Shown: piece after piece, positions 11,681 through 59,639 of the stretch
Layout of the letters: each line of letters opens with the position of its first letter
Position numbering within the stretch: the first letter of the stretch is position 1
Assembly: GCF_964355755.1 (NCBI RefSeq)
Contig: NC_092670.1
Location: 33,095,795 to 33,159,794, forward strand
DNA from: Antedon mediterranea
Taxonomy: Eukaryota; Echinodermata; Crinoidea; Comatulida; Antedonidae
Direction: 5' to 3'
DNA length: 64,000 nucleotides
Translations under genes and position numbers: made by a program
The notes under the pieces: generated by a model
Database searches by the model: none
Told to the model about the DNA's origin: nothing
What the model saw: only the letters and a program-made list of their open reading frames with translations

Positions 11681-11689
11681 ACAACTGTA

Positions 11690-15544: not shown

Positions 15545-15640
15545 CGAAACGACATTCTGTGGTACAACCCACCGTTCAGCAAAAACGTCAGCACAAACAT
15601 TGGACAGAAATTCCTATCCCTAGAGATTAGCTACAGTTGT

Positions 15641-16160
15641 ATGAACAATATGAAACAGATAATAGACAGTCACAACAAGAGAATACTCAACCAGCCCGAA
15701 ACAACATCCATGGAAAACACGCAAGAAATCAAAACATGCAACTGCCGACAGAAAAACACATGCCCGCTAAACGGAAATTGCCTACAATCATCTGTAATAT
15801 ACCAAACCACAGTTACACGCAAAGAAAATCCACCTCGGAAACTTATATCGGACTCACTGAAAATGATTTTAAAACACGATACAGAAATCACACCTCATCA
15901 TTCCGTCATACACGTTCTAGAAACTCAACCGAACTCAGTAAACATATTTGGACACTCAAGGACAACAACACAGACTATTCAATCTCATGGGGCATTTTGG
16001 CATCTGCTAAAGCATACAGTAGCGCAAACAAAAAATGAAACCTCTGCCTCAAAGAGAAATTATTTATCATCCGCCACCCTAAATTATTGACATTAAACAA
16101 ACGCAACGAACTTGTGTCCGCCTGCCGGCACAGAAAGAAAGCATTGTTACATAACAGCTG
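15641..16160 (+). pseudogene. GIY-YIG endonuclease part, Penelope family 2 (right), broken
   Basis: It starts MNNMKQII like the left copy and keeps the Cys cluster. A 1-nt loss near 15828 shifts the frame, so SETYIGLTENDFKTRYRNH lies in another frame. A TGC-to-TGA change near 16036 ends the second frame early. The YIG Tyr is preserved here, unlike the left copy: the two copies have decayed at different places. Confidence 0.75.
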
Positions 16161-16246
16161 ACCTTCCAAAACATATCACCCCTAAATGCTAATTCTACAA
16201 GTAAATGTGCTTATAAGCAACTTTGTAATTGATTGTTCTCATTATA

Positions 16247-16295
16247 GTCTCCTGATGCATGAGTTGCACGACTCACGAAACAAGCCTGTAGAGAC
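16247..16295 (+). ncRNA. Hammerhead ribozyme, family 2, core mutated
   Basis: Same stems as the family-2 ribozyme at 11029-11077, but the core reads CTGATGC and the first stem II base changes too. The last A of CTGATGA is invariant in active hammerheads, so this copy is probably dead. Confidence 0.75.
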
Positions 16296-16330
16296 CAAAC
16301 TGTAGTTTTTACTTCTTTTCCAGACTTAAC

Positions 16331-16352
16331 GTATATATATATATATATATAT
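16331..16352. repeat. (TA)n microsatellite
   Basis: TA run between the family-2 and family-1 right-arm copies, in the mirror position of 10893-10934. Confidence 0.9.
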
Positions 16353-16374
16353 TTTATATAGTAGCGTTGATTTT

Positions 16375-17338
16375 TTGGACACTATAGTGACCATAGAAAA
16401 TGGTACACTCAAAACTGACCTATTCCGTAAACCCACGGATAAAAATATGTACCTGCTCCCTAGCTGTTGTCACCCCCAACACTGTACTAAAAACATACCG
16501 TACAGTCAAGCATTACGTATCAGACGTATCTGTTCTTCAGATTTAGATTTTCAGAATGGTACCGAAGAACTAACCGGACATCTCCGGAATAGAAATTACA
16601 AGAAGGAATACATCGAAACTGCTATAAAGAAAGCAAAAGATATTCCTCGATGTCAAACACTGACGTACAAACCACGTCAGCAAAAAAAATCGACCAGAGT
16701 GCCATTGGTCACAACCTACCACCATAGGTTGCCTCCATTACGGGCTATTATTGAGAAACATATGCCCATTCTACAGTCCACAGAACGTCTCAGGACTGTT
16801 TTTCCGGAACCACCCATTATTGCATTTCGTAGACCTTCCAACCTTCGTGATATATTAGTCGGATCCAAATTTAAGAGTGAAATTAACTCTCATGACAGCC
16901 AAAATTTGGGCAGTCACCTTTGCGGCAAATCTTGCAAAATTTGTTCATTGGTTGATTCTACTGAAAAATTTGAGAGTAACCAAACTGGCCGCATTTTTCG
17001 GATAAGACAATCAATTAATTGTCTAACCAAAAACGTCATTTATCCCATATACTGTAATATTTGTGGCAAACAGTACGTCGGAAAAACAAAAAAACACTCT
17101 CCGTATGAGAATGACACAACATAGATCACCTATCAAAACATTAAAGCTTGATCAACCTGTAGCCAAACATTTTAATTCAGCTGGTCACTCGATTGCAAAT
17201 TTCAGAGTTATTGCAATAGACCACGATGTCAAATGGAGCGACAAAACTCGCAAAGACAAAGAAAACCACTGGGAATTACTACTTAAAACCACAAAACCTT
17301 TTGGACTTAACATTAGGAACATACTCCCAGATCGGTAA
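16375..17338 (+). pseudogene. RT end plus GIY-YIG endonuclease, Penelope family 1 (right)
   Basis: The first frame (to 17124) encodes the RT end and the start of GIY-YIG (CNICGKQYVG). A frameshift in an A run near 17090 moves the rest (RMRMTQHRSPIK to NILPDR) to the next frame, ending at 17338. It closely follows the left copy otherwise. Non-functional because of truncation and frameshift. Confidence 0.8.
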
Positions 17339-17564
17339 AATTATTCCATTGACTACCAAAATTTAAGTTTCAATATTAACCACCATTTAAGCTGTTTTTT
17401 AGTCTCATTCCAAAATTCTTTATATCTCTACCAAGCTACCTTCTTTGTTTTCCACTCTTATTCAGACTCCACCCTGGCTCCCTTTGTTATATTTCTTTTA
17501 TTCCTGTCCATCCACGCAGCACTTACCAGCTTTTATACTATGATGTTATCCAAATTCCTTCACT

Positions 17565-17602
17565 TGCACTGATGAAGGGCTAGTGTTGCCCGAAAGCTCT
17601 GC
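17565..17602 (+). ncRNA. Hammerhead ribozyme, family 1, copy d
   Basis: Plus-strand TGCA, CTGATGA, GGGC/GCCC stem II with loop TAGTGTT, GAAA, AGCT, C, TGC. All core bases are intact. It mirrors copy c at 9387-9424. Confidence 0.7.
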
Positions 17603-17756
17603 TAACTTTTCTGGCTGTTTACTTTATCGTTTTGATTTAGCTTTTCGCTTTTTATTTTTGAATCTCCATTGAGATCAAGCCACTGATACCCACAGCATTG
17701 TCATTTTTTTTCAGTAATTTGCCTTTGGATTTATATATATATTTTATATATATATT

Positions 17757-19775: not shown

Positions 19776-21388
19776 TGTAAAAGTTAAATATTTAGTTAGT
19801 ATTTGAGATCACCTAATTCACATTGTGTAGTAATTTTTCATATGCCAATAATATCTTAAAAAGTAAGAACTGTAGCTGCTCTGAGATGATTTTGATATGT
19901 TTTGTATGCATTATGTAAATGTTTGTGGTTTGTATGTACTGTACGCCATTCGTATACTACATTGTTTCATGTTATGTACTGTATGCCATTCGTATACTAC
20001 ATTGTTTCATGTTATGTACTGTACGCCATTCGTACACTACATTGTTTCATGTTATGTACTGTACGCCATTCGTATACTATATTGTTTCATGTTATGTACT
20101 GTATGCCATTCGTATACTACATTGTTTCATGTTATGTACTGTACGCCATTCGTACACTACATTGTTTCATGTTATGTATTGTACGCCATTCATGCACTAC
20201 ATTGTTTCATGTTATGTACTGTATGCCATTCGTATACTACATTGTTTCATGTTATGTACTGTATGCCATTCGTATACTACATTGTTTAGTGTATGTACTG
20301 TACGCCATTCGTACACTACATTGTTTCATGTTATGTACTGTACGCCATTCGTACACTACATTGTTTTGTGTATGTACTGTACGCCATTCGTACACTACAT
20401 TGTTTTGTGTATGTACTGTACGCCATTCGTACACTACATTGTTTCATGTTATTTACTGTACGCCATTCGTACACTACATTGTTTTGTGTATGTACTGTAC
20501 GCCATTCGTACACTACATTGTTTTGTGTATGTACTGTACGCCATTCGTATACTACATTGTTTTGTGTATGTACTGTACGCCATTCGTACACTACATTGTT
20601 TCATGTTATTTACTGTACGCCATTCGTACACTACATTGTTTTGTGTATGTACTGTACGCCATTCGTACACTACATTGTTTCATGTTATTTACTGTACGCC
20701 ATTCGTACACTACATTGTTTTGTGTATGTACTGTACGCCATTCGTACACTACATTGTTTTGTGTATGTACTGTACGCCATTCGTACACTACATTGTTTCA
20801 TGTTATTCACTGTACGCCATTCGTATACTACATTGTTTTGTGTATGTACTGTACGCCATTTGTATACTACATTGTTTAGTGTATGTACTGTACGCCATTC
20901 GTACACTACATGATTTCATGTTATGTACTGTACGCCATTCGTACACTACATTGTTTCATGTTATTTACTGTACGCCATTCGTATACTAAATTGTTTTGTG
21001 TATGTACTGTACACCATTCGTACACTACATTGTTTCATGTTATGTACTGTACGCACCTCGTATACTACATTGTTTATATGTCATGTATGTCATTTATGCA
21101 ACACATGTTTTGTGTTGTCTTTTCTTGTAGTGAGTGATCATAATCTACAGAGTAATAATCACAATAGCCATTTCAATAATATTCTCCCTCGTGTAAGATA
21201 TTTAGAGAAGTTAAGGTCACGCTATATAGGGCGTTCATAGAAAGAACCTCGTGGGTTGAAGAGGTGAGATACATCATGGCGATGTAAGGTTTATAATAAC
21301 CCAATAAAGGAGTACGTTTAAAGAGCTGGATGTCAAGATTGTTTATTGACTACTGTTATACTATCACTAATTATGATCACAGGTTACA
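19776..21388 (+). repeat. 3' LTR of the Gypsy element, containing a minisatellite
   Basis: It begins TGTAA right after a polypurine run (AAAAAAAAGGAA) and ends TTACA, giving a 5-bp inverted terminus. An AATAAA occurs at 21303. Only the last 24 or so bases can be compared with the 5' remnant, so the left boundary rests on the polypurine tract and TG. Most of its 1.6 kb is the minisatellite. Confidence 0.6.
19936..21065. repeat. 39/40-bp minisatellite, about 28 units
   Basis: Unit GTACTGTACGCCATTCGTAC followed by ACTACATTGTTTCATGTTAT (40 bp) or the variant ending TTTTGTGTAT (39 bp). The 40-bp type fills the left part and the two types interleave on the right. The array creates open frames in several phases on both strands. 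These are repeat artefacts. Confidence 0.95.
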
Positions 21389-21436
21389 ATAAGATGGGTC
21401 TGTCTATAAATTGTAGCAAGACAGAGTGTTTAGTAG
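21389..21436 (+). mobile_element. LINE fragment, part 1
   Basis: Encodes KMGLSINCSKTECLV, matching the RT of the LINE at 58147-59578. It starts directly after the LTR end and is split from part 2 by the element at 21437-22349. Confidence 0.8.
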
Positions 21437-22349
21437 GGCGCTACTGCAGTCTCGCACCACACAGTTATATCTTCGACTTCTCACCTAAATTATTTCTCAC
21501 ACCCACATCATACAATTTGGGGCCATCATGTAACATGTTCCCATGATTTAGCCACCGTTAAATTACATTTATTACAATAAAAAATACCTTTAAAAACAGC
21601 TCCTTTTCCGGAAATACTTTGATCAAACTGTGGCCATTTTAGAATCAGAAAATTGCCAGAAACCAATGTATCTTTTCATTTTATTTTTTATTTTTAAACT
21701 ACAGAGTTTGGTTTTATACTAGAACCTGCTGTATCAACACGGCGACGATATGAGTCCGTACATATAACATTTTTTTTTTTTTTTAATTCACAATTTTAAA
21801 AATCATAAACCATATATTTTAATTTCATTATGTAAAACACATATCTAAGATCGTCATCATCATAGCAAATACTGTATTGTTATCTCACTGTATTAAAAAA
21901 TAGAAAATGATTTGTTTTCCTTTTTGTGAAATATTAATTTTCTTTAATAGGCCCTAATAATATGAATAATAATATTAATGAAATATTAATTTAACCTTAC
22001 TACACCATCTGAAAACATTTCTTGCCTTTCAAAAGTAAATACACATGTGTAATCGGATTTTATAACACTACCCTCTGTAGCTTCTACATTTTTGTACATT
22101 TTTGGAAAATGAAGCATACATTCTGGCAATCAATTGTTCAATACCAGATGACGAACATTCGCAGTGTGACAACGAGTTCAGAGTATCGTTAAAAATGTCT
22201 TGAAAAGTATTGTTATTTAAAACAAATTACTTCGTAAGTGATCGAACCGTATAGACATGTTACATACTATTATGTTGTGAGTGTGAAAAAAGAAAGTTTA
22301 GGTGAGAAATCGAAGATATAACAGTGTGGTGCAAAACTGCAGTAGCGCC
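21437..22349. mobile_element. MITE-like DNA element MT, copy 1
   Basis: Terminal inverted repeats of about 60 bp start GGCGCTACTGCAGT and contain CACCACAC.GTTATATC. GTTTAGTAG occurs at 21428-21436 and 22350-22358, and removal joins the LINE frame. No transposase. The 8-9-bp duplication fits hAT or Mutator. A second copy with its own duplication is at 37153-37913. Confidence 0.85.
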
Positions 22350-22980: not shown

Positions 22981-23194
22981 ATGACATTTTGCCTGTCGCT
23001 TGTCAAGTACGAGTGAAGTATGACGTCATAACATTGACAAAGTTTACCAAACTCACCATCACCATCATCGTCATGTATCGCCGTGCTTAAAATACAACGA
23101 GGCGCATTTGGGCTAGGACGGTTGTGACAGTAACTCCATTACGTGGATATAATAATATAATGAACATGATACATATACATAACAATAGGCCTAC
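22981..23194. other. Lectin copy B intron remnant
   Basis: Matches the intron between the two CTLD exons of copies A (about 4000-4190) and C (about 62600-62771). The second CTLD exon of copy B, expected further left, is gone. Confidence 0.7.
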
Positions 23195-23455
23195 TTGTAT
23201 ACTTTGATTTGCTTCCTGACAACCACTCAAATTGTCCTTCTTTATTTAAATCATTGTATCCAATCCAAGCTTCGTTTAGTGAATTTCCTATAATCAATTG
23301 GTTAAGTATCCACATGTCTTCGCTTTTACTTGAAATTTCAACCAAATTCCCACTAAGACTATAGCATACATCTCTCCCGGAATTCCACGTACCAGGAGAT
23401 GTGAGATAGTAGCATTTTAAAAATTGAGAGCTATAGTGCCATCCAGTTGGACACC
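23195..23455 (-). CDS. Lectin copy B, first CTLD exon
   Basis: Complete 261-nt minus-strand exon (87 codons, phase 1 in and out) with a TTTGTAG acceptor and a GT donor in CAAGTAGGCC. It encodes GCPTGWHYSS, CYYLTSPGTW, DVCYSLSGNLV and AWIGYNDL, FEWLSG: the N-terminal half of a C-type lectin domain with its first disulfide Cys residues. Joined in phase to the signal-peptide exon at 28933. No second CTLD exon remains downstream, so the locus is probably a pseudogene or needs a distant exon. Confidence 0.75.
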
Positions 23456-24012
23456 CTACAAATAAAATAATATTCGTACTATTATTGCGAACAAATAAAT
23501 TTGCTTACAGTCTACTGTAGACCTAATTCAATTCAATAAAAATGCGTATTATTAGGCGGATTAATAAGAATAAGATATTAATAGAAGGTGAGCTCGCTTT
23601 GGACGCTCATCCTCTAATAAATGCCGTAGGCCTAACTGGTATTTTCAATACTTTATTTTGTTTTTTTTTTAATTTCTGACATTTTAATTGTATATACTGA
23701 TTTTACAATACTCCGATGATTTATGAATTTATTTGACTTGAACGTTAACATTTTTTGCAGTATAAATTTTTTTTGCTAAAATCTCCCAGACTTTGTATCA
23801 GTTGCGTTCCCTTTATAATATACAAATTTGCACCCAATTTTAATCCTGTGTACAGCTGTGTAGACCTAACAGTTATTTTGACAACAAAATAGATGTTGTC
23901 CATTCCTATATAAGATGTCCATGTATACTTAAAAACCATAAAACACTGTGTTGTATTTGTCCCAAAAGCTTCAAACGCGACAAAAGCTAATAACTAGTAG
24001 GTAGGCCTGTAA
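23456..24012. other. Lectin copy B intron, left of the foldback insertion
   Basis: Paralogous to 63036-63615 of copy C. It includes a short hairpin-like GTGAGCTCGCTT...GCTCATCCTCTAA segment near 23590. No gene. Confidence 0.7.
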
Positions 24013-29645: not shown

Positions 29646-30062
29646 AAGTATGCAAAAAAGTGTTTGCACAAACCAAAAAACAACGAGAGCTCTGAAGAAA
29701 GAGTCCGAAAATGAAGTCAAGACGACAGAAGAAAAAACAAAGTGTATTGAAAAAAGAAGATTAAGAAAGAGAAATCTTAATAATATGTATTATAAATATT
29801 GTAATTTCCTTGTTAAGCTCTTTATATGGCAAGCCTCAGCTGTCTGAAGTATTCAAAATATTATATTATTATATCATTTTTTTATTATATTATAAATTGC
29901 ATTGTAATGAATTATACGTTTTGCATTATATTACTTGGTTTTAGCATTATATTATATCTATTTAAAATATATTATGTTACAAATATAACAAATTATTGAC
30001 TTTTTGTATTATATTATTCGGTTTTGGCATTATATTATGAACATTTACTATTATATTATTAA

Positions 30063-32783
30063 AGATGTATTGTCCCTTTGACTATAATTCCAAAATATTT
30101 TTTTTTTTAATTTCGAAAAAAAGTGGGTCATTTTGAAGTATCATAATAGTTATTAACTTTCACCAAAAATTAGTAAAAAAAAAAATAATTTAACCGAAAT
30201 ACAGATGTTTTTTTTGTTCAAAAAATAACTTTGACTTCCAGTCAAAGTTTTCAATCAAAACATATCCCATAATGCAATGCGCTTGTTTGGCTACTCTGTA
30301 TGCATAATCATAAACTTCCTCGCGATCTGTGTGAAAACACCTTCTCAAACGTGATGAGTTGTAAACAATCCTAATTATCATCACTAGATGGTAGGCTCGC
30401 TTCGCTCGCGTACCATCTAGGTCGTGCCCACAGATGGTTCTCGAATACATAATAATTTCAGCGTTAAAAAACTGGCGATTTCAAATGTACGTACCGCAGG
30501 ACAATAATACATGTCGTTTACAGGAACGAATAAATAGACACTGTGATTTATGTACTCAACTAAAATTAGCACCCTATTACTTCCGAAAGAGAAACTTGTC
30601 ACAAAATAAGACCAATAATTGTTTAAGTCAAAATATATTCTTTATCCATTTAGTAACGAAATATTAATTGCTTTCATGTTTTACAAATAATATACCACTA
30701 AACACAGTAAAACATTGCGATGTAATACTTTGTTGGAACTATCACCGTCCTAGTCGATTGAAATAGTACAGCACATGTAACGATACATCACTGTGACCTC
30801 CAGTCACGTGTAAAAGGCAAATAACAGAAACTTGTAACGCGTTATTGTGTCAAACGGTTTTAACTGAAATTTAATAGAAAAAATAAACAAGAATTAACAT
30901 CAAATACTAATTAAGCACTGTATTGTACATACTGAAGATTTCTATAGTCAATTCCTTTATATAACATATAAACAATCTTATTGGCCTATTCTGCAGCTGC
31001 GCACTACTTGTGCTCAGTCAAGCGTAACAAACATAATTCTGCACGCCGTGATAACTCACATGGTCTATCCATGAAGAATTCTATATTGAAATATAAGTTT
31101 CCAATTACATAGCTAATCTAACTACACATGAACTACTAAAATGTTGATCACATAAACTACAATATCGTAGGTAAATCTACCACAGAATACGATGAATGTC
31201 AATCATAATATATAAAGTTATAATATAATTAAAAGCTTCCAACTAATCTATATAGTCAGGCGAACAGCGCTAATCGCATCTTTTAGGCTAGCATAATGCT
31301 GCACACAATGGATGGTAACAATCAAGGATGATCGAAACTTAAACTTACAAAATAAAGAAAACTATAAAGTTACAAATACTAAATCTTACGTCATATGATT
31401 CCTAAGTTATTAATTAAATGTATGATAATAATTAAAAGCATATAAAAACATACATCTATCTGTGACTATGCCTTTTGGAATAAAACATGGTGAAGATGAC
31501 TGCTCACTTTTCGGAGAAAACAACACAGTAACCTCGGTAACATGAGAAGCAAGGCAATTTAAATAAAGTATGGGACGCCAAATGCGTCGTACTCAAGCTG
31601 TAACAATCACTACCACGTGTATATGTTTATATAATGTAAAGCAATTTGTGAAAACCACCTCTATTCGGAGAAAATCATAAATTCGATTTAATCGTCAATA
31701 AATATTAAATTATCTAACTCAACTTAATTAGTAGGCCTAATGGTTTTCAATTGTTTCTTAGAGCCAATTCATACTTAAGTTGGTTCCTACCCTACCCACC
31801 AAAGTTGTTCTGCGTTTAGGGCATGTGATGTACCGTAGGCCTATTCTCTACTGGTTTTACAACGCTACTCATGCCAGTGAGGGAAAGGTGATGATGTGGG
31901 TGGGTTAACTGCAATAATAAAGATTTGTACATAATATACGGCGAGTGAAAACGCTAGCTCATTATCCGTTTAAAAAAAAAATATATCCAACCTCTGCAGC
32001 ACAGATTGAAAACAAAATTGGATCGAATTTCGAGTATACAGTACTGTACTTGCCTTTACGACGCCTGAGGGAATAGACACTTGTGAAACAGAGATTGGAA
32101 TGTTCCATTCATCGCAAATCAATACATTTGTATAATCGTATATTAAATCTATCAAAATAGTATTTTTTAAAGAAAATCGGCCTGTCTTCAACATTATGAT
32201 GCTGTACTCTAGCTGTTCAACCAGTTTTCAGCTATTAAAAACAATTATCGTAGGAGGAGATAGGAAAATGCGAAGCCTCCTCGTTTTTTTGTGGCGGGTA
32301 TTTTTCAAGATGGACATCCATTAGACAGTGTATACCACGATCGGAAAACACCCCTATTTGGGGCAAATCGTTGAACCTAAATTCGTTTTAATCGTCAATA
32401 ACTAATTACCTAACTCAATTTAATTAGTAAACAGGGTTACATCAGATGGTTAAAATTAGTACCTAAAGTATGAACCAACTTTATATACCATCGAGTAAAA
32501 ATTCTAGAAATAAACCGAGATTTACCGAATTTTGCCCTTACGTAAATTTATATATAGATGCATAATGCATACTCATGGTTTGAAATATTTGTTTACTTTC
32601 GCTTGCGACGATTTCTCAGACGAAATGTAATCTAATTAATTTACCTGTTAATTACGTAAACTGTTGTTTTTGGCTTGAATTTTCGACTTAAAGTGAATAA
32701 CTTTAATATTACTTTGATATGGCCAATTTAAATTTAGAATATTTATTTTTTTCATTTTTTGTGTTTCAAGGGACAATACATCT
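30063..32783. mobile_element. TTAA-type DNA element holding a Helitron-like insertion
   Basis: Inverted ends AGATGTATTGTCCCTT are flanked by TTAA (30059-30062 and 32784-32787). The other arm of the giant foldback shows the empty TTAA site near 42836. Without the nested H2 the element is about 550 bp. TTAA duplication fits piggyBac or Kolobok. No transposase is visible. A related left end is at 29436. Confidence 0.85.
30384..32558 (-). mobile_element. Helitron-like element, copy H2
   Basis: Minus orientation: the 3' hairpin with CTAGATGG/CCATCTAG is at 30384-30420 and the 5' end TCTATATATAAATTTACG at 32558. The flanks are A and T, the canonical Helitron target. It shares several long blocks with H1 and H3 (for example the GTGGCGGGTATTTTTCAAGA region). 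Between them lie 2.1 kb without a Rep/helicase frame. Confidence 0.75.
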
Positions 32784-33014
32784 TTAATAAAATACATTAT
32801 ATTATAATATAATTGTATTCTATTAAACCCATTTACCGTACTTTATAACATACAACATTATTATATTATACGGATTCGTTAGTTAGATTATTATTTTGTA
32901 TGATGTTTATTATACGTCACGGCTTATTTCACTTCTTCTAACTCTTTCTCTCCCTCCCCCTGTTCAATAGCAATCAGCGGCAGAATCTGAATTGTGTGAC
33001 TGTTGAAGAATAAC

Positions 33015-33044
33015 CAGGGAGTTGTTATTAGTAACAACTCCCTG
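33015..33044. mobile_element. 30-bp palindromic insertion with 7-bp target duplication
   Basis: The insert is a 13-bp perfect inverted repeat, starting CAGGGAGTTGTTA, with a TTAG loop. GAATAAC stands on both sides (33008-33014, 33045-33051). The other foldback arm has a single GAATAAC near 42600 with no insert. See the similar insert at 44061. Confidence 0.8.
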
Positions 33045-33519
33045 GAATAACTATACTACTAGGCCTGCTAGGGGATTACAATAATACTACTACAATAACT
33101 ACTACAACTGCTACTACTTAGGCCTAGCTAGTAGAGTACTAGGTAGCTACTACTAGGCCTAGGCTCTCTAGGGCGTATGTATGATGTCAACTACTAGGCT
33201 TCTAGGCCTACTAGTAGTACTAGGCTAGGCCTAGACTTAAGTTGTAGTAGGCTAGGGCCGGGACTGCTGCCTTTGGCTAGGCTACTACTACTACTACTAC
33301 TACTACTACCAGGCAGCCAGCCAGCCCATGATGGGTACGAGTAAGCCAAAATGTTGGATACAAGTAAACCAAAATTTAGGTACGAGCGAGTTGGCATGGC
33401 ACGGGTACGGATTGACCTGTATCCTTCTAGCTAATCGTACTAGGCCTAGGCCTCTAGTAAGTCTACGCTACCCAGTCCGGCTACAATATGGTCTATTTTG
33501 TTTTATAGCTTTATTGATA

Positions 33520-33590
33520 GCTGGGTTCAAATCTGGGTTGGGACGACTTTTTCTCATTCTAAAACAGATTTCTTTATCATAATAAAATAA
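33520..33590 (+). repeat. Decayed 3' half of a tRNA-like repeat, left arm
   Basis: GGGTTCAAATCTGGGTTGGG followed by ACGACTTTTTCTCATTCT matches the T arm, acceptor and trailer of the 364-bp tRNA-bearing repeat. The mirror copy is at 36440-36510 in the right arm. Confidence 0.65.
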
Positions 33591-33924
33591 TATATGAATT
33601 TATTTGTAATATTGTAATGTATACATAATATAAGATTAGTAATAGCCATTGCATTTATTATTATTAATTTTATATTATACGGTTACCCCTTAATTATACT
33701 ATAGTATAATCTCCTTGTTATATTTTACAATATTTTCTTCATAATTCTACAATTTTGTCTTTCACAGCACAAATTTATCATACTGAATCATCACACACCA
33801 AGTCTCATAAATCTCTACTGTATTTGTCCAAGCTACTCCAGCTACATGGCCTCATGCCTTGAGGCTAAACTACACGGTATACTGGGACTACCATCATTCC
33901 TGGCTCGTCAACCTGGACCACATA

Positions 33925-34110
33925 AGCACAGTTTCAGTTTCAGTTTATTTACCATTTCAATTTCTGAACATAAGAGATGAACAACTTATATGGAGAGATA
34001 ACCGTAAGAGCGAAGCTCGTTTACCGGTCACCCGTTAGTGCAGTGACATTACAGACAACACAGGACAGCAATACATAACAAGACATGTGAACACTTGTGT
34101 TTGCCATCCC
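33925..34110. repeat. 3'-end-like retroelement fragment, left arm
   Basis: Contains CAGTTTCAGTTTCAGTTTAT, the complement of a (GAAACT)n tail, and is mirrored at about 35930-36100. It was therefore present before the arms duplicated. Family unknown. Confidence 0.4.
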
Positions 34111-34708
34111 TTGGATAAAATAATATATTTATATAAATGAGAAAGTTAGATATTATAATATTTCTTTTTGATCATACAATGATAATTTTTTAATTACTTC
34201 TTAAGAAGTCATACTACTGATTCAACATAGTGACTTACACCCTTTGGTCAAGGCTTTTTTTGCTCTTATGCTTATTTCCTCCAACATACAGAGTACCATG
34301 GAGTAAGAAAGTACATAGGACTTTTTGTATTCATAACTGTTGAATTGCACTCCCAATACATAGTACCTATTGGTATTATATCTAAAAATAAAAAGGCGGC
34401 TAACACAGATAGTTCCATATACAGTACTCTCTTATAAATAGATGTATCTCTCCAGTCTACTCCCTAATCTAATAATAGTACTACAGTATTAGCATACTAC
34501 TATACACTTGTAGACAAGAAGTAAGTTGTATACACCTAGAGGACTTATGGTAGTACAGTCGAACGCCTTCTCACTGGCCCGGTCAACATAATCTATACCT
34601 AAATTATTACAGTAATTAAAGTACATTATTACAGAGATTTTTTTTTTTTTTGCAGAAATCGAAGTTATGTGTATAGAAAGCTTACTCGTATTAAAAACTA
34701 AGCAGGTT

Positions 34709-35444
34709 GTACTCTTGAACGCAAACTGGCAGGATATTTTGAAAATTTTTTATTGTTGAAATGAATGGAATCCTAACTTCTTTGCAACAACTGGAGACGA
34801 AGACATATTATGACCCTTTTATTTAAATTTATTTGAATAGACCTCCATGTAAATTCATTAAAGGCTATATGTTTGTTTTATATTTTAATATGTAATAGTA
34901 GAAAATCATTGTGTATAATGAGGACTATGAATCTGATATTCACTTACATTCTCATCTTTTTTAAATTTTATTTATAATGCTGGTAATGAGTTTAAAATTT
35001 AATTATATTGACTAGTTTTGATAATCATTATGTCCTTATAAATGCATTTATATTTCTTTTGTGTAATATAGTTCATATATTATGTATTAAATAAATTGGT
35101 AAGGCCCTATACTGTTATTATTTAATGAAAGTTTATATACACTTATTTTATGCCTACCAATATTAGTATTAATTGTTAATATAAATATTTTGTCTAATTG
35201 CCTTGATTTTTTGTATAGGCCAATGGCATCAATGTTTTTCTCAAAGCAAATTAGCCTAATAATGCCACCTTTAGACACATGATTCATTGATTTCTGATAT
35301 TCTGTACTTGTGTATGCATTACTAAAATAGTAGTTAATATATTTTATAATGTATGTATAAACATATATTCATATTTTTTTTAACATTTTTAAATTTAAAA
35401 ATTATTACAATACCTATCTAATAAAAAAATACCTATCTATCTAA
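34709..35444. other. Spacer of the giant foldback, no gene seen
   Basis: AT-rich, unpaired between the arms. The longest frame (35087-35287, minus) has no recognisable domain. Confidence 0.5.
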
Positions 35445-36439
35445 AACCTGCTTAGTTTTTAATACGAGTACTGTTTCTATACACATAACTTAGATTTCTG
35501 AAAAAAAAAAATCTCTGTAATAATGTACTTTAATGACTGTAATAATTAGATTAGGTAGTTGGGAGTAGTTTGGAGAGATACATCTATTTATAAGAGAGTA
35601 CTGTATATATGAGAAACCTATCTGTGTTAGCCACCTTTGTATTTTTAGATATAATACCAATAGGTACTATGTATTGGGAGGCAATTCAACAGTTATGAAT
35701 ACAAAAAGTCCTATGTACTCTGTATGTTGGAGGAAATAAGCATAAGAGCAAATAAAGCCTTGACCAAAGGGTGTAAGTCACTATTTTGAATCAGTAGTAT
35801 GACTTCTTAAGAAGTAATTTAAAAATCATCATCATTGTATGATCAAAAAGAAATATTATAATATCTAACTTTCTCCTTTATATAAAATTAATATATTATT
35901 TTATCCAAGGGGTTGCAAACACAAGTGTTCACATGTCTTGTTATGTATTGCACCTTTGTCCTGTGTTGTCTGTAATGTCACTGCACTAACGGGTGACCGG
36001 TAAACGAGCTTCGCTCTTACGGTTATCCTTCCATATAAGTTGTTCATCTCTTATGTTCAGAAATTGAAATGGTAAATAAACTGAAACTGAAACTGTGCTT
36101 ATATGGTCCAGGTTGACGAGCCAGGAATGATGGTAGTGCCAGTATACCGTGTAGTTTAGCCTCAAGGCAATACCATTAGCTGGAGTAGCTTGGACAAATA
36201 CAGTAGAGATTTATGAGACTTGGTGTCTGATGATTCAGTATGATAAATTTGTGCTGTGAAAGACAAAATTGTAGAATTATGAAGAAAATATTGTAAAATA
36301 TAACAAGGAAATTATACTATAGTCGTATAATTAAGGGGTAAACGTATAATATATAATTAATAATAATAATTGCAATGGCAATTACTAATCTTATATTATG
36401 TATACATTACAATATTACAAATAAATTCATATATTATTT

Positions 36440-36510
36440 TATTATGATAAGAAAATATGTTTTAGAATGAGAAAAAGTCGTCCCAACCCAGATTTGAACC
36501 CAGCTATCAA
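36440..36510 (-). repeat. Decayed 3' half of a tRNA-like repeat, right arm
   Basis: Mirror copy of 33520-33590: GAGAAAAAGTCGTCCCAACC followed by CAGATTTGAACC. Confidence 0.65.
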
Positions 36511-36854
36511 TAAAGCTATAAAACAAAATAGACCATATTTTAGCCGGACTGGTAGCGTAGACTTACTTGAGGCCTAGTACGATTAGCTAGAAGGATACAG
36601 TACAGGTCAATCCGTACCCATGCCATGCCAACTCACTCGTACCCACATTTTGGTTTACTTATATCCAAAATGTTGGCTTACTCGTACCTATAATGGGTTG
36701 GCTGCCTGGTAGTAGTAGTAGTAGTAGTAGCCTAGCCGAAGGCAGCAGGCCCGGCCCTAGCCTACTACAACTTAAGTCTAGGCCTAGCCTAGTACTACTA
36801 GTAGGCCTAGGCCTAGCTAGTAGTTAACATCATACATACGCCCTAGAGCCTAGT

Positions 36855-37110
36855 ATCAGTATTCAGTATTTATTGGTACTCACTTTCGAATCAGTGGCAC
36901 ACACCTTTCGGTGGTGCGTCCATACAAATATAAACAACAACATATAAAAGGTAAATGATGATAAAACTTAATAAAAACATAATTAACTTACATTGAAAAA
37001 AAAAAAAACAAGACAAAAACAAATGTACAGTAGTAATTGCACACTTGAGTAGATACTTAAAAACAATTGTATAACGAGCAAATAAATAAATCGATGCAAT
37101 AGGTCAGTAG
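36855..37110. repeat. Insertion of about 255 bp in the right arm only
   Basis: The left arm reads straight through here (about 33160). The inserted sequence has a GTGGCACACACCTTTCGGTG segment and A-rich stretches. I do not recognise the family and see no clear target duplication. Confidence 0.5.
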
Positions 37111-37152
37111 TAGTAGTAGTAGCTACCTAGTACTCTACTAGCTAAGCATAAG

Positions 37153-37913
37153 GCCGCTACTGCAGTTTTGCACCACACTGTGATATCTTTGATTTCTCGC
37201 TTAATTTTTTTCTCACACCCACATCATACAATTTTGGGCCATTATGTAACATGTTCCCATGATTTAGCCACCGTTAATTACCTTTATCATAACAAAAAAT
37301 GCATTTCAAAACAGCTTCTTTTTTCGCGAATACTTCGATCGAACTGTGGCCATTTTAGAATCAGAAAATTGCCAGAAATCAATGTATGTTTTATTTTCTG
37401 TTTTTATGTTTAAAAAGAGTGGTTTTTATAAAGAACCAGCTGTTGTACATCCATATCAAAACGGCGACGATATGAGTCCGTACATAAAACATTGATAGGA
37501 ACCATTAATATGAATAATAATACTAATAATGAAATATTAATTTAACCTTTATTATTTCGTCGACAGCTGAAAACATTTCTTGCTTTTCAAAACTAAATAG
37601 GCCTAGGCCTATATGTGTAATCGGATTTTATAACACTGCCCTCTATAGTTTATACAATTTTTTGGGTAAAAAGAAGCATAAATTCTGGCAATTGAGTGAT
37701 AAATATAAGATGGCGAACATTTCGCAGTGTGTTGACAGCGGGTTCAGTATTGTTTAAAATGTTTTGAAAAGTATTGTTATTTAAAAAAAATTACTTAGTA
37801 AGTGGTCGAATCGTATAAACATGTTACATAATATTATGTTGTGAGTGTAAAAAACGAAAGTTTAGGTAAGAAATCGAAGATATAACGGTGTGGTGCGAAA
37901 CTGCAGTAGCGCC
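37153..37913. mobile_element. MITE-like DNA element MT, copy 2
   Basis: Same termini and interior as 21437-22349. AGCATAAG flanks both sides (37145-37152, 37914-37921). The left arm of the foldback has no insertion at the matching site (near 33115). Confidence 0.85.
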
Positions 37914-38899
37914 AGCATAAGTAGTAGCAGTTGTAGTAGTTATTGTAGTAGTATTATTGTATTGTAGTATTAGTTGTAGCTGTCCGGTGGTCCTTGGTCA
38001 CTGTCTAACTAGCTACGTCTAGGCTAGATCAAAGAATATAATTATATCACAAGAATGAGTAATCCGCGATTTTCCATGTAACAGTAATATTGTCCATGTA
38101 GTAGGGCGCCGCCATAAGTGAGGATGTGTCTGGTATGTATACAACTTTTTGTGACGGTTTCACTAATCAAAGGCTGGACCACCGGTAGTATTTTCATGAT
38201 AAAAAATGTTATCAACTACATGCTAACATCATGTTAAATGCTGTTTGGATATTTAATTGTTCGTTTTATGCAATTTATTTAGTAAAAACTGCCGTATAAA
38301 CAGTTCACTTTAGCAACCGGGCGCTACGAATGCGTAACCGGGCGTGTTGGTGTTTACGCGTTTTCAAAAAGGATAGTTTAAAAATATTCCTATATATAAA
38401 TTGTTTCTGGTAAAACAAATAACTGTTAATGAAATTTAACATTTTATCTTATTAATAACATGTATTTTATACTAATTTATATCATAAAAACAATTATACT
38501 TAATTTACCGGGCGTAGAGTAGTACGCGGCAATGGTAAAGAATAGGCCGTGTGCTGAGTAACGATTCGTTGATTTTTTGTGTTGCTGTGTTAGGCCTTTT
38601 TTGTGAACTAATTTAGCATGTTAGTAAATAATTGTCTGTAAAAGTGAATGTACACTAGTTTGTTAATAAATATGTATTATAAAATAGTTTACAATTGTAA
38701 AATATATTATCATAATTCTATTTAATGTGACATGTATAATATCTATTAAATCAAGTCTTATTTAGTATGTATCAAAGATCTTATTATACTAAAGATGGGA
38801 CACTCTCGAAATTTTACGTGCAATTCATGTAACACACATGGAGCTCATTTTATAGGGCGCCCTCTCGCTCAAACAAGTAGATTTATGGATCAGATATGT

Positions 38900-39616
38900 C
38901 TACTGTATTGTAACTTGTAACTTTTTTCATCACAATAATTGCGGTAGTGTGCGATTAAATTATAATGATAGACTTATTTCCTGTACTTTGTATATCTCTA
39001 TTTGTTTTAATTACTGAATATTGTTGTTATTATTGAATGTTTATCATCATCCTCAAAATCATCATCTAGGAGTAATCATCACTCACATCACTATACTACT
39101 TATTTATGCGAGTCGGTCCCTCTGGTATTAACACTAAGCGCATAATATTCCGTTTTTGTTCTTGATGTGTTCTTCTTTTTCATCCAGCAGCAAAACAGTG
39201 CAGATTAGGAAAATATATTAGCCAAAGAGTGTGTTATAAACAATTAAAAAAGAACAAGAAGTCACTTTTTAAAATCACTACTGTACTTCGACTATTTTAG
39301 TGCAGTAATTTTTCGGAATATATTTTATAAACAATCATAGGTAAGCCTACAGCCATGATGAAACACATTATGATAGTCAATTCTGAGACAATTCATACTA
39401 GGCATACATGTACCCATCATTCGCCATGACATTCATTTATTATTATAATTTATTTAAAACATGAGATAACAATTAGTTATGTTATAGTAGTGTCAGTTTA
39501 AAATTAACTCAATAACTATTGCGAAATGATGCACGGGCCACCGAGAGGAAATATAAAAAATGTAGAAACATTGAAATAAAATCATCATATTTACAATTAT
39601 TCATCATACCAGACCG
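38900..39616. other. P-like element interior, no gene seen
   Basis: AT-rich, no recognisable transposase parts. Confidence 0.4.
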
Positions 39617-41275
39617 TCGTAATGTCGTGAGGTGGTTTCCCGATTAATCGTACGATCAAAACGGTACTGGGTATGATCAACTAGCGTTCGTGTTCCCACC
39701 TAATCATCCATTCATAGAAGTACTGATGAAGATATCAATCTGTGGTGACAATAGAATGGACCCGAGACCTGGCTATTTTCGACTTTTAAATAATAGAAAG
39801 TTTAGAAAAATGTTTTTGTTAAAATAGAAATGTACGTTGTATGTATATAGAAAAAAATGGTTGTAGTTTTCAAAATTACGTTGTATAAGTTGCGATGTGA
39901 AAAACTGTTATTTGATCGTTAGTTGTCGTGTACATAAAGCAAAAATATAAATAGCCTATAATAAAATAAAATAAAAATCATTAGTAAAACTTTTAAAAAG
40001 AGTAAAGATATAAGGAAGAAAAGCAAAGAGATCATGGAGCGGCTGTACAAGAATATACAACACTAAGTATTGTAAAGTTAAAAACTAAAAATTTAGGCGA
40101 TCTTGTCAAAGGTCAAGCGCCTTCAGCCTGCCACGTTTCGATATTCAATATTGAATATCGAAACGTGGCAGGCTGAAGGCGCTTGACCTTTGACAAGATC
40201 GCCTAAATTTTTAATATAATATTAACTTTACAATACTTAGTGTTGTATATTCTGCTACAGCCGCTCCATAATCTCTTTGCTTTTCTTCCTTATATCTATA
40301 TTTTTTAATTTATACTAACAAATATCTTTTTTATTAATATAATAATAATAATATATCAAAAATTTATTAAATAATATTCATCGCATAATTTGCAATCTAG
40401 GCCTACGATAATTTAATTAATTGATATAACAAATGTATTAAATACATAACATCATTGGAATAAAAAGAACAAATCACATATCTACACATAATAATCATAA
40501 CATCGTATACTCTATCTCTATCTAACAATTTATTCAATCTTCTATCGACTAAAGCCGAAGTATAGTCGTTATCTCGGGACCGTTCTATGGCCACCACCAG
40601 GTAGGCTTACTTCATTAAGGCTTCTATGAATGGATGTACTGGTTGGGAGCAGAAAATCTAGTAGACCATACCCAGTACCGTTTTGATTACGATCAATCGG
40701 GAATTTACCTCACAAGGTCAAGTTCAATATTGAATATCGAAACGTGGCAGGCTGAAGGCGCTTGACCTTTGACAAGATCGCCTAACTTTTTAGTTTTAAC
40801 TTTACAATACTTAGTGTTGTATATTCTGGTACAGCCGCTCCATGATCTCTTTGCTTTTCTTCCTTATATCTTTTACTCTTTTTTAAAGTTTTACTAACGA
40901 TTTTTATTTTATTTTATTTTATTATATTTATGTTTTTGCTTTATGTACACGACAACTGACGATCAAATAACAGTTTTCACATCGCAACTTATACAACGTA
41001 ATTTTGAAAACTTATACAACGTAATTTTGAAAACTACAACCATTTTTCTATATACATACAACGTACATTTCTAGTCTAACAAAAACTTTTCTAAACTTTC
41101 TATTATTTAAAAGTTGAAGATAGCCAGGTCTCGGGTCCATTCTATTGTCGCCACAGATTGATATCTTCATCAGTACTTCTATGAATGGATGATTAGGTGG
41201 AAACACGAACGCTAGTTGATCATACCCAGTACCGTTTGATCGTACGATTAATCGGGAAACTACCATACGACATTA
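39617..41275. repeat. Compound palindrome (three copies of one 530-bp arm)
   Basis: A left arm (39617-40149) meets its inverted copy at a perfect centre, GATATTCAATATTGAATATC. The first inverted copy is interrupted at about 40331-40545 and ends at 40711, where a second, full inverted copy (40712-41275) begins at the same centre. Outer ends contain CCCGATTAATCGTACGATC. No coding capacity. It is nested in the P-like element. Confidence 0.85.
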
Positions 41276-41966
41276 TGATCATCATTTCTAGCCGATAATG
41301 CACAGACCGGGGCGCGTACAGACCTCCTACAACTTTACCATACCTCAGAAATGTAAATTTGTTACTCTTCTTCTTCTGATTATGTCTCTGTTGAAGAATT
41401 TAACAGCATAGAATATGCGTAGGTTTACTTATGTTTCAATTAGCAATGTTTCAATTGCTGGTGAACAAACATTAACTTCATACCAAATCTATGTAACATG
41501 GTAGCGATTTTTAACTTTATTTTTCTGATGATGTTTTATGTATGTAAGTATTTGTTAAAGTTAGAAACAAAAATCTTTTCACAAATAGATAGGACATTAA
41601 CTACATTGTCAGTAGGCATAATTAATCCTCCGAAGTCGGTACTGGTTGATGGGCATATAAGACTTAAAATGTGTTAGGAACTGCTTTGGGTCTTCCAGTT
41701 TTCGATTGGTTTCTCGCATCGCACTGTTACTACAGATATCGCACTTACTTTCTTGACGACGTAACCGGCTACATAATTATACTAAAGTATAAGTAGAGTC
41801 ATCTCAAAGTCTTCTAAGCGGCAGTCGTCGTCAGTGGTGGCATCGTTGTCTTCTTGATCGGCAACATGATGTGGCGTTGATGATGATGATGATTGGGCCA
41901 TCATTATTGCATCAATTCCATTTAGCTGTACTGTCGATCAGTGTCTTCTAGGCAATTCGAATTCCC
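41276..41966. other. No gene seen
   Basis: AT-rich stretch between the compound palindrome and the transposase remnant. It may hold lost transposase introns. Confidence 0.4.
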
Positions 41967-42229
41967 CTAACGGAACAACATCCTGTTGAACATAACTTCC
42001 TTCAGGGAGGCTCTAAATTCATCTACCATCTGGTTATAGCAATGACCCCCTCTCCCTCTGACAATAGAAAATAAGTTCTCATTGCAATCTTGATTTAGTC
42101 TGCCTGTGACCATCAGTATTTGAGATTCTTCGAAATGAATGTTGCACAAGTGGCAATTACGGTGTAAATAGGAACTTGGTTTCCTTCTCAAATCCACGCG
42201 TCGTGTGTTCTGGGCCCATTTTGCACACC
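41967..42229 (-). pseudogene. THAP9/P-element-like transposase, internally deleted fusion
   Basis: After an AG acceptor (TTTACAG) the frame reads CAKWAQNTRRVDLRRKP, then HRNCHLCNIHFEESQ, the second half of a THAP zinc finger. It passes directly into VTGRLNQDCNENLFSIVRGR, a motif from the C-terminal part of P-type transposases, and stops after about 87 codons. The RNase H-like and GTP-binding regions between them are missing, as in internally deleted P elements. The first THAP Cys pair would be in an upstream exon not identified. Confidence 0.8.
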
Positions 42230-42369
42230 TGTAAATTAATAATTGTCATACAAACTTTGGCGCGAAAACTCAATCCCTAAAGAATACTGCGATCGTCACG
42301 CAAAAGTTCGTTACTTGTTTAAGCGAGGGGGCGCACTATAATTTGACGCTTCTAAAGTGTTACGCGTAA

Positions 42370-42445
42370 ACGCGGGTAGTGTCACATCTTTAGTATAATA
42401 AGATAAACGCGGGTAATGTCACGTCTTTAGTATAATAAGATCTTT
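42370..42445. repeat. Two tandem copies of a roughly 35-bp subterminal sequence
   Basis: ACGCGGGTA.TGTCAC.TCTTTAGTATAATAAGAT occurs twice at the right end of the P-like element. The left end has one copy. Confidence 0.8.
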
Positions 42446-43075
42446 TGTATGTATACATCCGCCCTTATGAGGGCGGGCATCACTCTCTGGAGCTCTCTGT
42501 TACAAATTTCTCATGCAAAAATCGCGGAATACTCATTCTTGTGATATATATTTTTTGGCTAGATCCCCTAGTAGGCATAGGCTAGGCCTAGTACGTAGTA
42601 TAGTTATTCTTCAACAGTCACACAATTCAGATTCTGCCGCTGATTGCTAGTGAACATGGGGAGGGAGAGAAAGAGTTAGAAGAAGTGAAATAAGCAGCCG
42701 TGACGTATAATAAACATCATACAAAATAATAATATAACTAACGAATCCGTATAATATAATAATGTTGTATGTTATAAAGTACGGTAAATGGGTTTAATAT
42801 AATACAATTATATTATAGTATAATGTATTTTATTAATAATATAATAGTAAATGTTCATAATATAATGCCAAAACCGAATAATAAAATACAAAAAGTCAAT
42901 AATTTGTTAAATTTTTAAAATAATATATTAGAAATAGATATAATATAATGCTAAAACCAAGTAATATAATGCAAAACGTATAATTCATTACAATACAATA
43001 TATAATATAATAAAAAATCATATAATAATATAATATTTTGAATACTTCAAACAGCTGAGGCTTGCCATATCTTTA

Positions 43076-53260: not shown

Positions 53261-53302
53261 GGTTTTGGCCGTGGTCCTAATGAAGAACAATCTGAACCAT
53301 CT

Positions 53303-54526
53303 TTGAAAGTCACTAAACACATTGATTGTATTTCTTGGAATATTAACGGTATTAATAACAAATTCGCTGATTCTGACTTTATTGAGTATGTTAACAAATT
53401 TGACATAATTTGTTTTAGTGAAACATGGGATAAATATCGGAACGATTACAATATTAAAGGTTTTACTTGCATATCAAAATTACCAGATAAAACAAGTCGA
53501 CATAGAAGAAATAGTGGAGGCGTAATGGTATATTATAAATTAAATCTCGTCGTTGAAGAACTGCCAAGTGCATCGAATAACATTATTTGGTTAAGGATTA
53601 CTCTATCCCCAACCGACACTGTTGTAATCGGTTTTTTGTATAGACCACCAAGTACATCCAGTTACGCGACAACTGACTTTTTTGACATTTTATCTAACGA
53701 ATATTTGCATTACAGCTCCCAAATATCAGACATAGTATATGTAGTTGGCGACTTTAATGGTAGAACTGGTTCGGAGGACGATTACATATCCGCTGACGAA
53801 AATGACACATGGAACAATAATCTATATCTGGAAGACAACATCCGGATTGAAAGTAGAACGAATTCTGATTGTATACTAAATTGCTACGGTAAAGATATAT
53901 TAGAATTTTGCAAAGAAACTGGTATGCGAATCACAAATGGTAGAATTGATAAAGAATCATCCAGTGGTTTTACATTTATCAGTTCACAAGGTAAAAGTGT
54001 ATGTGATTACCTTCTTACTAACTCAAACAACTTTAAACTAATATCTTATTTAAGAATTGATGACCGTGTTGAATCGGATCATATGCCAATTGCCTTTAGT
54101 ATTCAATTCAAAGACAAAGAACACACCAAATTGATTGTCAATGAAGATGACACGTTTACCCAGAGTACGTTCAAATGGTCCAACAGTTACATTAAAGCAT
54201 CCAAAGTCAGATGGGAACATGATATCATTGAAACTATTGATAATGATTTTATGAATGCTATCTCTCAAAATAAAATTGATGAGGCAGTTTCACATTTATG
54301 TAAAATTTTTGAATACGTATGTAAAGGAATTAAGTATACACAAACAAGTAAATCTTCAACTTCTACAAAACGAAACGAATGGTTTGATAAAGATTGTAAG
54401 AACCTTAAAATGCAGGTTAAACAATCATTAAAGAGATTTAAAATTATGCGCACTCAACCTTTTTTAAATAATTATATTCAGATAAAAAAGCAATATAAAT
54501 CGCTATTAAAATGCAAAAAAAAATAA
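53303..54526 (+). pseudogene. APE-type endonuclease of L3 copy b (ORF2, piece 1)
   Basis: Residues show the endonuclease motifs in order: SWNINGI (Asn, about 10), CFSETWD (Glu, about 37), IGFLYRPPS, VVGDFNGRTG (about 149) and SDHMPI (near 260). The catalytic set N, E, D, D, H is present. The frame then enters the RT spacer and ends at 54526, where a run of nine A makes a frameshift. The domain would nick target DNA. Confidence 0.85.
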
Positions 54527-54529
54527 CTT

Positions 54530-55205
54530 TCATAAAAGAATACGCAAACAAATTATCGATTCACTCAATACAAAGGATAGCAAAACGTTTTGGATGAAGT
54601 TGAAGACAAAACAGAAATTATCTTGCAAACTTTCTATTAATCAATGTTATATTCATTTTAAGAACCTATTTAAAAACGATGAGGCTATTGGTAGCGATGA
54701 GTTGTCAAAAATCACAGAATGCCAACAGAATGAAGACGATAATAATTTAGACCACGACATAACGTTGGATGAAATAAAAAAAGCATTTAATTCTCAAAAT
54801 AGAGGAAAAGCTCTCGGCATTGATGGAATGAATTTTGAATTTTTGCTAAACGCCCCCAACATTATTTTTGATATTTTAAAAATTCTTTTTAACGCCATAT
54901 TTTTAGTTGGAAAATTTCCCAAACAATGGGCAACAAGCTTAATCGTTCCAATTTTAAAAAATGGAGATAAAAACAAACCTGAAAATTATAGAGGTATTTC
55001 TTTAATTCCAATCCTAGGAAAAATATTTTTACATATTCTTAATTCTAGGTTAACACAATTTACAAATAGTAAAAAGTTAATTCATGAGGAACAAGCAGGC
55101 TTTCGTAAGGGATATAGAACGACAGATAATATATTCATTTTAGATACCCTCATCTCTAAATACTTAGATAAAAAGCGGGGTAGGATTTTTGTTTGTTTTG
55201 TTTGA
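54530..55205 (+). pseudogene. RT N-terminal part of L3 copy b (ORF2, piece 2)
   Basis: Starts after the first frameshift. It includes NRGKALGIDGMNFEF, PKQWATSLIVPILKNGDK, PENYRGISLIPILGKIF and EEQAGFRKGYRTTDNIF, the usual LINE RT start. The second frameshift is near 55195, within IFVCFV just before motif A. Confidence 0.85.
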
Positions 55206-56694
55206 TCTTAAACGTGCCTTTGACTCTATAAATCATACACTTTTACTACATAAGTTGAAATGTATCGGTGTTTCAGGCAGAATGTTACACATAATAAATT
55301 CCTTATACCAAAACTTATCTGCTCATGTTAAAATTGGCAACAAACTTAGTCCATCTTTTAATTGTTCGATTGGAGTACAACAAGGTTCTCCGTTGTCGTC
55401 TTTACTCTTTAATATTTACATTAATGATTTGAGTGGTATACTTAATCAGGTAAACGATTTCATTCAAATTGGAGATTGTCATATGAATCATCTTCTTTAT
55501 GCAGATGACTTAGTGCTTGTTAGTGATACGGTGAAAGGTCTCCAAAAATTAATAAATAAACTTGAACTTTATTGTGATACTTGGAAACTTACTGTAAACA
55601 CTACAAAATCCAAAATTATGGTTTTTAAAAATGGCCGCAATTTAAGGAACATTGAAAAATGGAAGTATAAACATATTCAATTAAAAATTGTTAATTCGTA
55701 TAATTATCTTGGTTTTATTTTTAGTTCAAATGGTGCATGGAACAAGTCAACGCAACATAATCAACAAAAAGCAAATCAAAGTTTATTCTGCTTAAAATCA
55801 TTTATTTATCGTAACTTATCTTTTCTTCCAATTAATACATGGAACCATATTTTTGATGTGAAAATACTTCCTATTTTAACGTATGGAAGCGAAATCTGGG
55901 GAATGTCAGATAGCACAAACATTATAGAAAAAACACATACTAAATTTTGTAGATATTTATTGCAAGTTGGAAAAAATGCACCAAATGCCGCTGTTACTTC
56001 TGAGTTAGGTAGATTACCACTTTCTTTGGATTGTTTAGTTACAGTTATAAGATTTTGGTTACATATTATTACTTTAGATCATGACAGATTCATTTTTAAG
56101 TGTTATGAGTTTCAACTTAGAAAAGTTAACCGTAATGAGAATTGTTGGGCACAACAGGTCAAACACTTACTCTTTTCTACTGGTTTTGGTTATATATGGT
56201 TACAACAATATGTTAATAGTAAAGGTTTATTTTTGAGAGAATTTAAGTTGCGCTTATGTGATATTGAAAAACAAAAATGCATTCAAAAATTTAGTTTACA
56301 TAATAAGTTAAGGCTCTTTTCTCTTTATAAAAAAGAAATATGTTTAAGTTATCACTTGACCAACATCATTAATTTTAAACAAAGAAGATTATTAACTAAG
56401 TTACGTTTAGGGATATTAGAGCTAGAAATTGAAAAGGGCAGATGGGAGGGTGTAGAAAGATATAAGAGAACGTGTAAATTATGTAAAAAGAACATTGTTG
56501 AGGATGAATATCATTTTATTTTGCAATGCACATTTTATAATGATTTAAGAAAAAGTTTTATTCCAAGATTTATTCGTGTTTTTCCTTCTATTAATAAGCT
56601 TTGTTTATTACTTTCCAACACAAATTTTACTTATAATTTAGGAAAATACGTCTACTTTGCTTTTGAAAGAAGAAACAATTATCTTAAGTTATAG
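55189..56694 (+). pseudogene. RT and C-terminal part of L3 copy b (ORF2, piece 3)
   Basis: The 501-codon frame has motif A FDLKRAFDSINH (residue 5), GVQQGSPLSSLLFN (about 64), catalytic LLYADDLVL (about 103), a thumb with YGSEIWGMS, and near the end CKLCKKNIVEDEYHFILQC, a Cys/His motif before the stop at 56694. No stops within. It would reverse-transcribe the element RNA if ORF2 were not frameshifted. Confidence 0.9.
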
Positions 56695-59578: not shown

Positions 59579-59639
59579 AATTTAAGACTACTGTACCGTA
59601 TATAATTTTCATGTATAATGTAAACAAAATAAAAAAAAC

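Follow-up and report, generated by a model that had tools for sequence, protein, structure and literature searches.

We analyzed a stretch of 64,000 nucleotides from the crinoid Antedon mediterranea (contig NC_092670.1, positions 33,095,795 to 33,159,794; hereafter the window), in which a first-pass annotation made from the letters of the DNA had described a giant foldback element at positions 29825-43069. The results show that this structure is an old, interrupted and degraded member of a dispersed transposon family, and that the commonest form of this family, a non-autonomous DNA transposon, is a near-perfect palindrome of 7.2 kb. We consider it likely that the window holds an old copy of such a non-autonomous palindromic family and that the family is presumably moved by a transposase of the IS3EU type made elsewhere. 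The finding goes beyond what had been claimed, in that the family is largely uniform, recently active and composed of whole-element palindromes standing side by side; it is also less than had been claimed, in that the ends and the length of the target duplications agree with those of a known superfamily, and foldbacks with long arms are already known as a kind of element. Replicating and keeping long near-perfect palindromes is commonly regarded as difficult. Dozens of 7.2-kb palindromes in one genome, some of them nearly identical, offer natural material for studying how such sequences persist, by what means their arms remain similar and what leads copies to lie side by side.

The genome searched was the window's own (354 Mb, 18 contigs; contigs are labeled C and loci L below). 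The 16-base end TATGGCAAGCCTCAGC gave 142 exact matches, 77 forward and 65 reverse, compared with 0 for the reversed pattern that served as control. When exact ends no more than 40 kb apart were paired, nesting being allowed, we obtained 57 forward/reverse pairs on 10 contigs, with 28 ends left unpaired; 33 of the 57 pairs measure 7.0-7.4 kb. Twenty stretches of genome were fetched for direct reading. Over its whole length, one copy, L037, aligns with the reverse complement of itself. All 13 near-full copies tested have arms of ~3.5 kb that pair from the ends to a loop of ~183 bp, in one or two blocks; in the copy L044 the arms make up 97.5% of the length. This is the anatomy of foldback elements, in which long inverted repeats leave hardly any middle domain or none. 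A 301-base stretch across the loop was recovered with 97-100% identity at 40 or more loci (40 were scored among 319 candidates), and this loop is both shared between copies and asymmetric. Long palindromes are a known assembly hazard, and on that general ground the structure could be read as an assembly artefact of palindromic reads or as a one-off segmental inverted duplication. Such an origin is extremely improbable in view of the 57 end pairs on 10 contigs, the differing 6-bp duplications described below, the shared asymmetric loop and the differences of 0.8-2.0% between arms; the one-off segmental inversion, which the first-pass annotation had itself named as the competing case, is excluded by the copies and duplications elsewhere.

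Among the 21 copies read directly, 15 are flanked by exact 6-bp duplications: 12 of the 18 fetched copies and, in addition, the window copy (TCTTTA), L022 (CCCCCG) and the copy bounded by L007 and L008 (AGTAAG). At a fixed place, six bases would match exactly by chance with a probability of ~0.0004 per copy. Two further copies fit the 6-bp pattern once nesting is allowed for: L037 was apparently inserted in the junction of L038, its target TTATAT being made of three bases of the L038 flank and the first three of L038, which is itself flanked by ATCTTA. Between L048 and L049 we counted 5 differences over 7158 aligned sites, with no gaps. Their duplications differ and their 60-bp flanks are dissimilar by look, which together with the near-identity of the two copies indicates very recent movement of the family. 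L022, a derivative shortened to 62 bp by internal deletion, comprises 56 bases of one end and has only TTGCCATA in common with the other end. Given that it is so small yet perfectly duplicated, the long arms are apparently not needed for movement itself, as far as this one derivative allows us to infer.

The window copy starts with TATGGCAAGCC at 29825 and finishes with GGCTTGCCATA at 43069. Both ends are exact and occur once each within the window, and TCTTTA abuts them on both sides (29819-29824 and 43070-43075), just as had been noticed from the sequence. The inverted arms of about 2.1 kb were also seen correctly: the paired part amounts to ~2.16 kb, with ~90-98% identity in several blocks. 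Mapping on an intact copy assigns the left arm to element positions 1-2884 and the right arm to 5091-7255. The unpaired middle is left-arm sequence, the partner of which is gone from the window copy together with the true center of the palindrome, and the copy diverges by 3-5% from young copies. The picture of a giant foldback as the form of the family thus holds as to the foldback, which is real, but not as to the form, since the window copy is degraded and the commonest form is 7.2 kb long and nearly all palindrome.

Computed after removal of the loop, the divergence between the two arms of a copy averages 1.55% (range 0.8-2.0%), and that between copies is 1.3-1.6%. Near-consistent differences between left and right arms (9-13 of 13 on each side) are confined to the ~400 alignment columns nearest the loop. 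Arms within a copy being as divergent as arms between copies, these values suggest that the arms exchange sequence, and would do so most completely in their outer parts. An earlier idea, that every copy joins one “A” arm to one “B” arm, was withdrawn, as the diagnostic sites lay in non-homologous halves of the loop.

Copies frequently stand next to each other. Of the 57 pairs, 15 start less than 1 kb beyond the end of a neighbor; in 13 of these the gap is within 500 bp and in 5 within 100 bp. Random placement predicts 0.009 gaps under 1 kb and gave a maximum of 2 in 20,000 simulations. Allowing gaps of up to 1.5 kb, we found 10 runs, the longest of four copies (C7:21551418-21582297 and C7:21929558-21960123). 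Palindromes promote rearrangement, and runs of this length, as well as the lack of any duplication around L043 in one run, are what could be expected if neighboring copies arose through tandem duplication by recombination rather than through insertion beside existing copies. We nevertheless regard tandem duplication as unlikely. In three other runs of the ten, those in which every member's flanks were read, the duplications of neighbors differ (AGTAAG/ATGAAT; AAAAGA/TTATAT/ATCTTA; AACATA, offset by 2 bases/ATATCA), as expected from separate insertions, and in one nest the outer minus the inner length is 7164 bp, that is, a full element; the L043 run is the fourth, and counts against separate insertion. 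Doubled ends, spaced by 22-25 or 90 bp, were found in 7 cases. The length of one case fits an insertion that struck another copy's end, and as slippage is possible for the remaining ones, doubled ends were not used as main evidence.

Separately from the runs, palindrome ends are dense at C4:16.7-19.4 Mb and C7:21.5-22.8 Mb, many of the C4 ends being unpaired. These regions are perhaps regions of low recombination or duplicated segments.

No open reading frame (ORF) of more than 113 amino acids (aa) is present in the three copies listed (L037, L043 and L045), which accordingly encode no IS3/IS481-related DDE transposase, and the two longest of these frames gave no Pfam match above the cut-off. 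As the copies read have no recognizable genes, movement of the family presumably requires a transposase produced elsewhere. Polintons end in AG..TC, whereas the palindromes end in TA..TA, and L037, L043 and L045 contain no long reading frame. That the palindromes are a remnant or a terminal fragment of a Polinton/Maverick element is thus hardly credible, even if 6-bp duplications (PMC10045372) and long terminal inverted repeats (TIRs) are features of these elements as well.

TA..TA termini are a constant feature of complete IS3EU families, the duplications of which are usually 6 bp long (PMC10045372), and the IS3EU families of rust fungi have TAYGG..CCRTA ends, 6-bp duplications and TIRs of more than 30 bp (PMC12730594). 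The termini of the present family, TATGG..CCATA (TATGGCAAGCC..GGCTTGCCATA, 142 exact ends), match TAYGG..CCRTA. Moreover, a second, sister family has the first 11 end bases, TATGGCAAGCCAA, in common with it (74 matches in the genome compared with 3 in the control). Its member at C2:18964285-18968508 (4.2 kb; ends L066 and L067, center L070) shows 2 differences over the 80 inverted-end bases read and is flanked on both sides by a perfect 6-bp duplication, CAGAGC; no long ORF was found in the central 801 bases of this element. Another sister element lies at C10:12766727-12770611. Given that no integrase match lies near the ends, the assignment to IS3EU was made from ends and duplication length only, and because the family is non-autonomous and encodes no transposase, we name it probably IS3EU-like rather than an IS3EU member. 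It is a real foldback transposon with many copies, but the proposal of a possibly undescribed family has to be qualified, since both the termini and the 6-bp duplications agree with what has been published for IS3EU.

A foldback of another superfamily (Mutator, P, hAT or other), similar to Tetris, Tm1 or Galileo and making 6-bp duplications here, would have the same general anatomy of long inverted repeats without genes, as exemplified by a 9021-bp Galileo copy (PMC4168063), and most foldbacks have been assigned to Mutator (PMC4079207). Tetris makes duplications of 8-10 bp (PMC4079207) and Galileo in Drosophila willistoni makes duplications of 7-8 bp (PMC4168063), whereas here they are of exactly 6 bp in 15 of 21 copies (among the 18 fetched copies, 6 bp in 12 and 7 bp in 1), and the ends fit TAYGG..CCRTA. 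We thus hold an origin from another superfamily to be quite improbable. The length of 6 bp lies outside the Tetris range and inside the range of 4-10 bp given for the IS256/MuDR group (PMC10045372), such that Mutator is not set aside by duplication length.

Several observations weigh against an IS3EU-type transposase as the source of movement. As the IS256/MuDR range indicates, duplications of 6 bp are not unique to IS3EU, and the reference list of PMC12730594 names a hAT group that makes them. Six of the 21 copies lack an exact 6-bp duplication: that of L033 is 7 bp long, and none abuts L031, L032, L035, L040 or L043, the duplication of L040 (AACATA) being offset by 2 bases. Searches of the genome with the exact end and with the IS481 and rva_4 profiles gave no autonomous copy bearing these ends, and the exact first 20 end bases followed by a different base occur at only 2 places, neither of which is a partner; the end at L019 matches the family only over these first 20 bases. 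Integrases of the IS3EU type were searched for with the profile PF24764 (rva_4), which we take to represent the likely IS3EU integrase. It gave 77 matches in the window's genome and matches in 0 of 14 control genomes. None of the 77 comes closer than 171 kb to any of the 142 palindrome ends, or closer than 67 kb to a sister end (74 ends), and 0 of the 13 matches on contig C1 have a TAYGGCAAGC site within 39 kb.

The rva_4 matches often form convergent inverted pairs, in which a strong match faces a weaker or broken one ~3-10 kb apart (C6:31605812-31615575, C4:20154973-20159001, C1:26565674-26569695, C1:5573765-5584234, C1:19510076-19520726 and C9:15661611-15670726). These pairs are possibly autonomous elements that are themselves foldbacks.

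The IS481 profile gave 61 matches in the genome, and 10 loci were fetched. Nine of them were rejected as partner, as they read by eye like Gypsy-type polyproteins. The tenth and best (L052/L064, C7:21684500-21692500) has an integrase and OTU protease gene, with one internal stop in L064, and L065 is a diverged second copy of this gene, alignable over ~3.2 kb. Exact TATGGCAAGC is absent from both L064 and L065. In L064, sequences with 1-2 mismatches to it are situated near either limit of the aligned part, but they form no inverted pair and have no counterparts at the corresponding limits of L065; inverted repeats beside the gene resemble, by eye, tRNA-derived short repeats. This locus was not accepted as the autonomous partner. 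Copies longer than 7.4 kb (for example C3:12420611-12436460, C4:16854145-16869414 and C1:24343405-24360181) had seemed partner candidates; their readable inserts, a minority of the interiors, consist of a TTAA element and a tandem-repeat-rich stretch, with no transposase. The stretch C5:8437643-8445561 was rejected as an end pair, as its ends diverge after 13 bases and its flanks are unmatched. The full-length relative carrying a transposase that the first-pass annotation had recommended looking for was thus not found in the searches made, which did not cover the interiors of the longest copies.

In the mechanism that we favor, an IS3EU-type DDE transposase produced elsewhere in the genome would bind the TATGGCAAGCC ends and join them to target DNA cut with a 6-bp stagger. 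Exchange of sequence between the arms would keep these alike, and either the transposase or the palindromic end DNA may mark the sites of old copies as targets, so that new copies would come to adjoin old ones. A wider and more tentative proposal, which we rate at somewhat less than an even chance, is that a transposon superfamily is able to keep whole-element 7-kb palindromes as stable units and to amplify them recently, their arms kept alike by exchange, with its transposase steering insertions beside existing copies and thereby building runs.

The arms of the window copy, interrupted by insertions, were mapped on the intact copy (target duplications and the compound palindrome carry no strand). 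Inside the left TCTTTA, the terminal part of the left arm, beginning with TATGGCAAGCCTCAGC (29825-30062, plus strand), is interrupted by a TTAA-flanked element (30063-32783, plus) that has 16-bp perfect terminal inverted repeats, AGATGTATTGTCCCTT, and is bounded by TTAA at 30059-30062 and 32784-32787. The arm continues at 32784-33014 (plus), up to a 32-bp hairpin insert, CCAGGGAG..CTCCCTGG (33015-33046, plus), with AATAA on both sides and lacking in the other arm, and then runs to element position 2884 (33047-35420, plus). The missing palindrome center and ~2.2 kb map to 35421-35444. The right arm lies on the minus strand and resumes with its inner part (35445-36855, element positions 5091-6633), followed by a 258-bp unclassified insert (36856-37113, plus), an insert with inverted ends (37151-37914, plus) that has a relative in the window at 21435-22349, and an arm fragment (37924-38002, minus). 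Element M (38031-42556, plus; inverted ends at 38043-38073 and 42518-42548) comes next, between 9-bp duplications GGCTAGATC at 38022-38030 and 42557-42565. It holds an element with inverted-repeat ends (38773-42446, plus) flanked by the 8-bp GTATGTAT at 38765-38772 and 42447-42454, inside which lies a compound palindrome (39617-41278). The terminal part of the right arm (42566-43069, minus) finishes in GGCTTGCCATA, next to the right TCTTTA. The nest is real: its duplications lie at the places first described, and inverted ends bound the inserts. The label of a Helitron-like element inside the TTAA insert and the label “P-like” for the element within M are putative. The right arm gives the empty site for both the TTAA element and the hairpin insert; the idea that the arms serve as mutual empty sites fails for M, the left arm being deleted there, and the empty site of M was therefore taken from L044. 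A TTAA-flanked element at arm position ~660 is common to the end loci L011, L013 and L016 and is 99.9-100% identical among them. As these loci lie within one 40-kb cluster, the sharing may equally reflect local duplication or spread together with the palindrome.

Elsewhere in the window, seven tRNA matches lie in tandem 364-bp units and inverted copies (7105-8947), and a large inverted duplication, presumably Penelope-like, has weak, below-cut-off GIY-YIG and reverse transcriptase matches (9234-17755). A 40-bp tandem repeat of ~29 copies shows a higher-order period of 118 bp (19931-21116), and an exon-like ORF has a C-type lectin domain (23139-23504). Two retrotransposon relics follow, one with endonuclease and reverse transcriptase matches (53261-56694) and one with a reverse transcriptase match (58169-59581).

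IS911 and IS30 are bacterial insertion sequences that target their own ends, and like them the palindromes would, by the targeting proposed here, place new copies beside existing ends; these sequences differ in being bacterial, short and autonomous. With the IS3EU/GingerRoot superfamily the family shares TA..TA termini, the TAYGG..CCRTA pattern and inverted ends of more than 30 bp known from rust-fungus families, and 6-bp target duplications, but its inverted repeats reach 3.5 kb, and no transposase was found inside or linked to it. No description of a palindromic IS3EU family was found in the available portions of the literature searched on IS3EU, GingerRoot and foldback palindromes, and the present family would add a foldback to a superfamily in which that search gave none. 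Tetris, likewise a non-autonomous foldback with long inverted repeats and an unknown partner, differs by its 8-10-bp duplications, by which its authors put it in Mutator (PMC4079207). The closest precedent seen is Galileo, of the P superfamily, of which a whole copy in D. willistoni consists of only two TIRs, of 4246 and 4680 bp, with no transposase (PMC4168063). That copy is a single extreme one in a family with 7-8-bp duplications, whereas here 33 of 57 pairs measure 7.0-7.4 kb and the duplications are of 6 bp.

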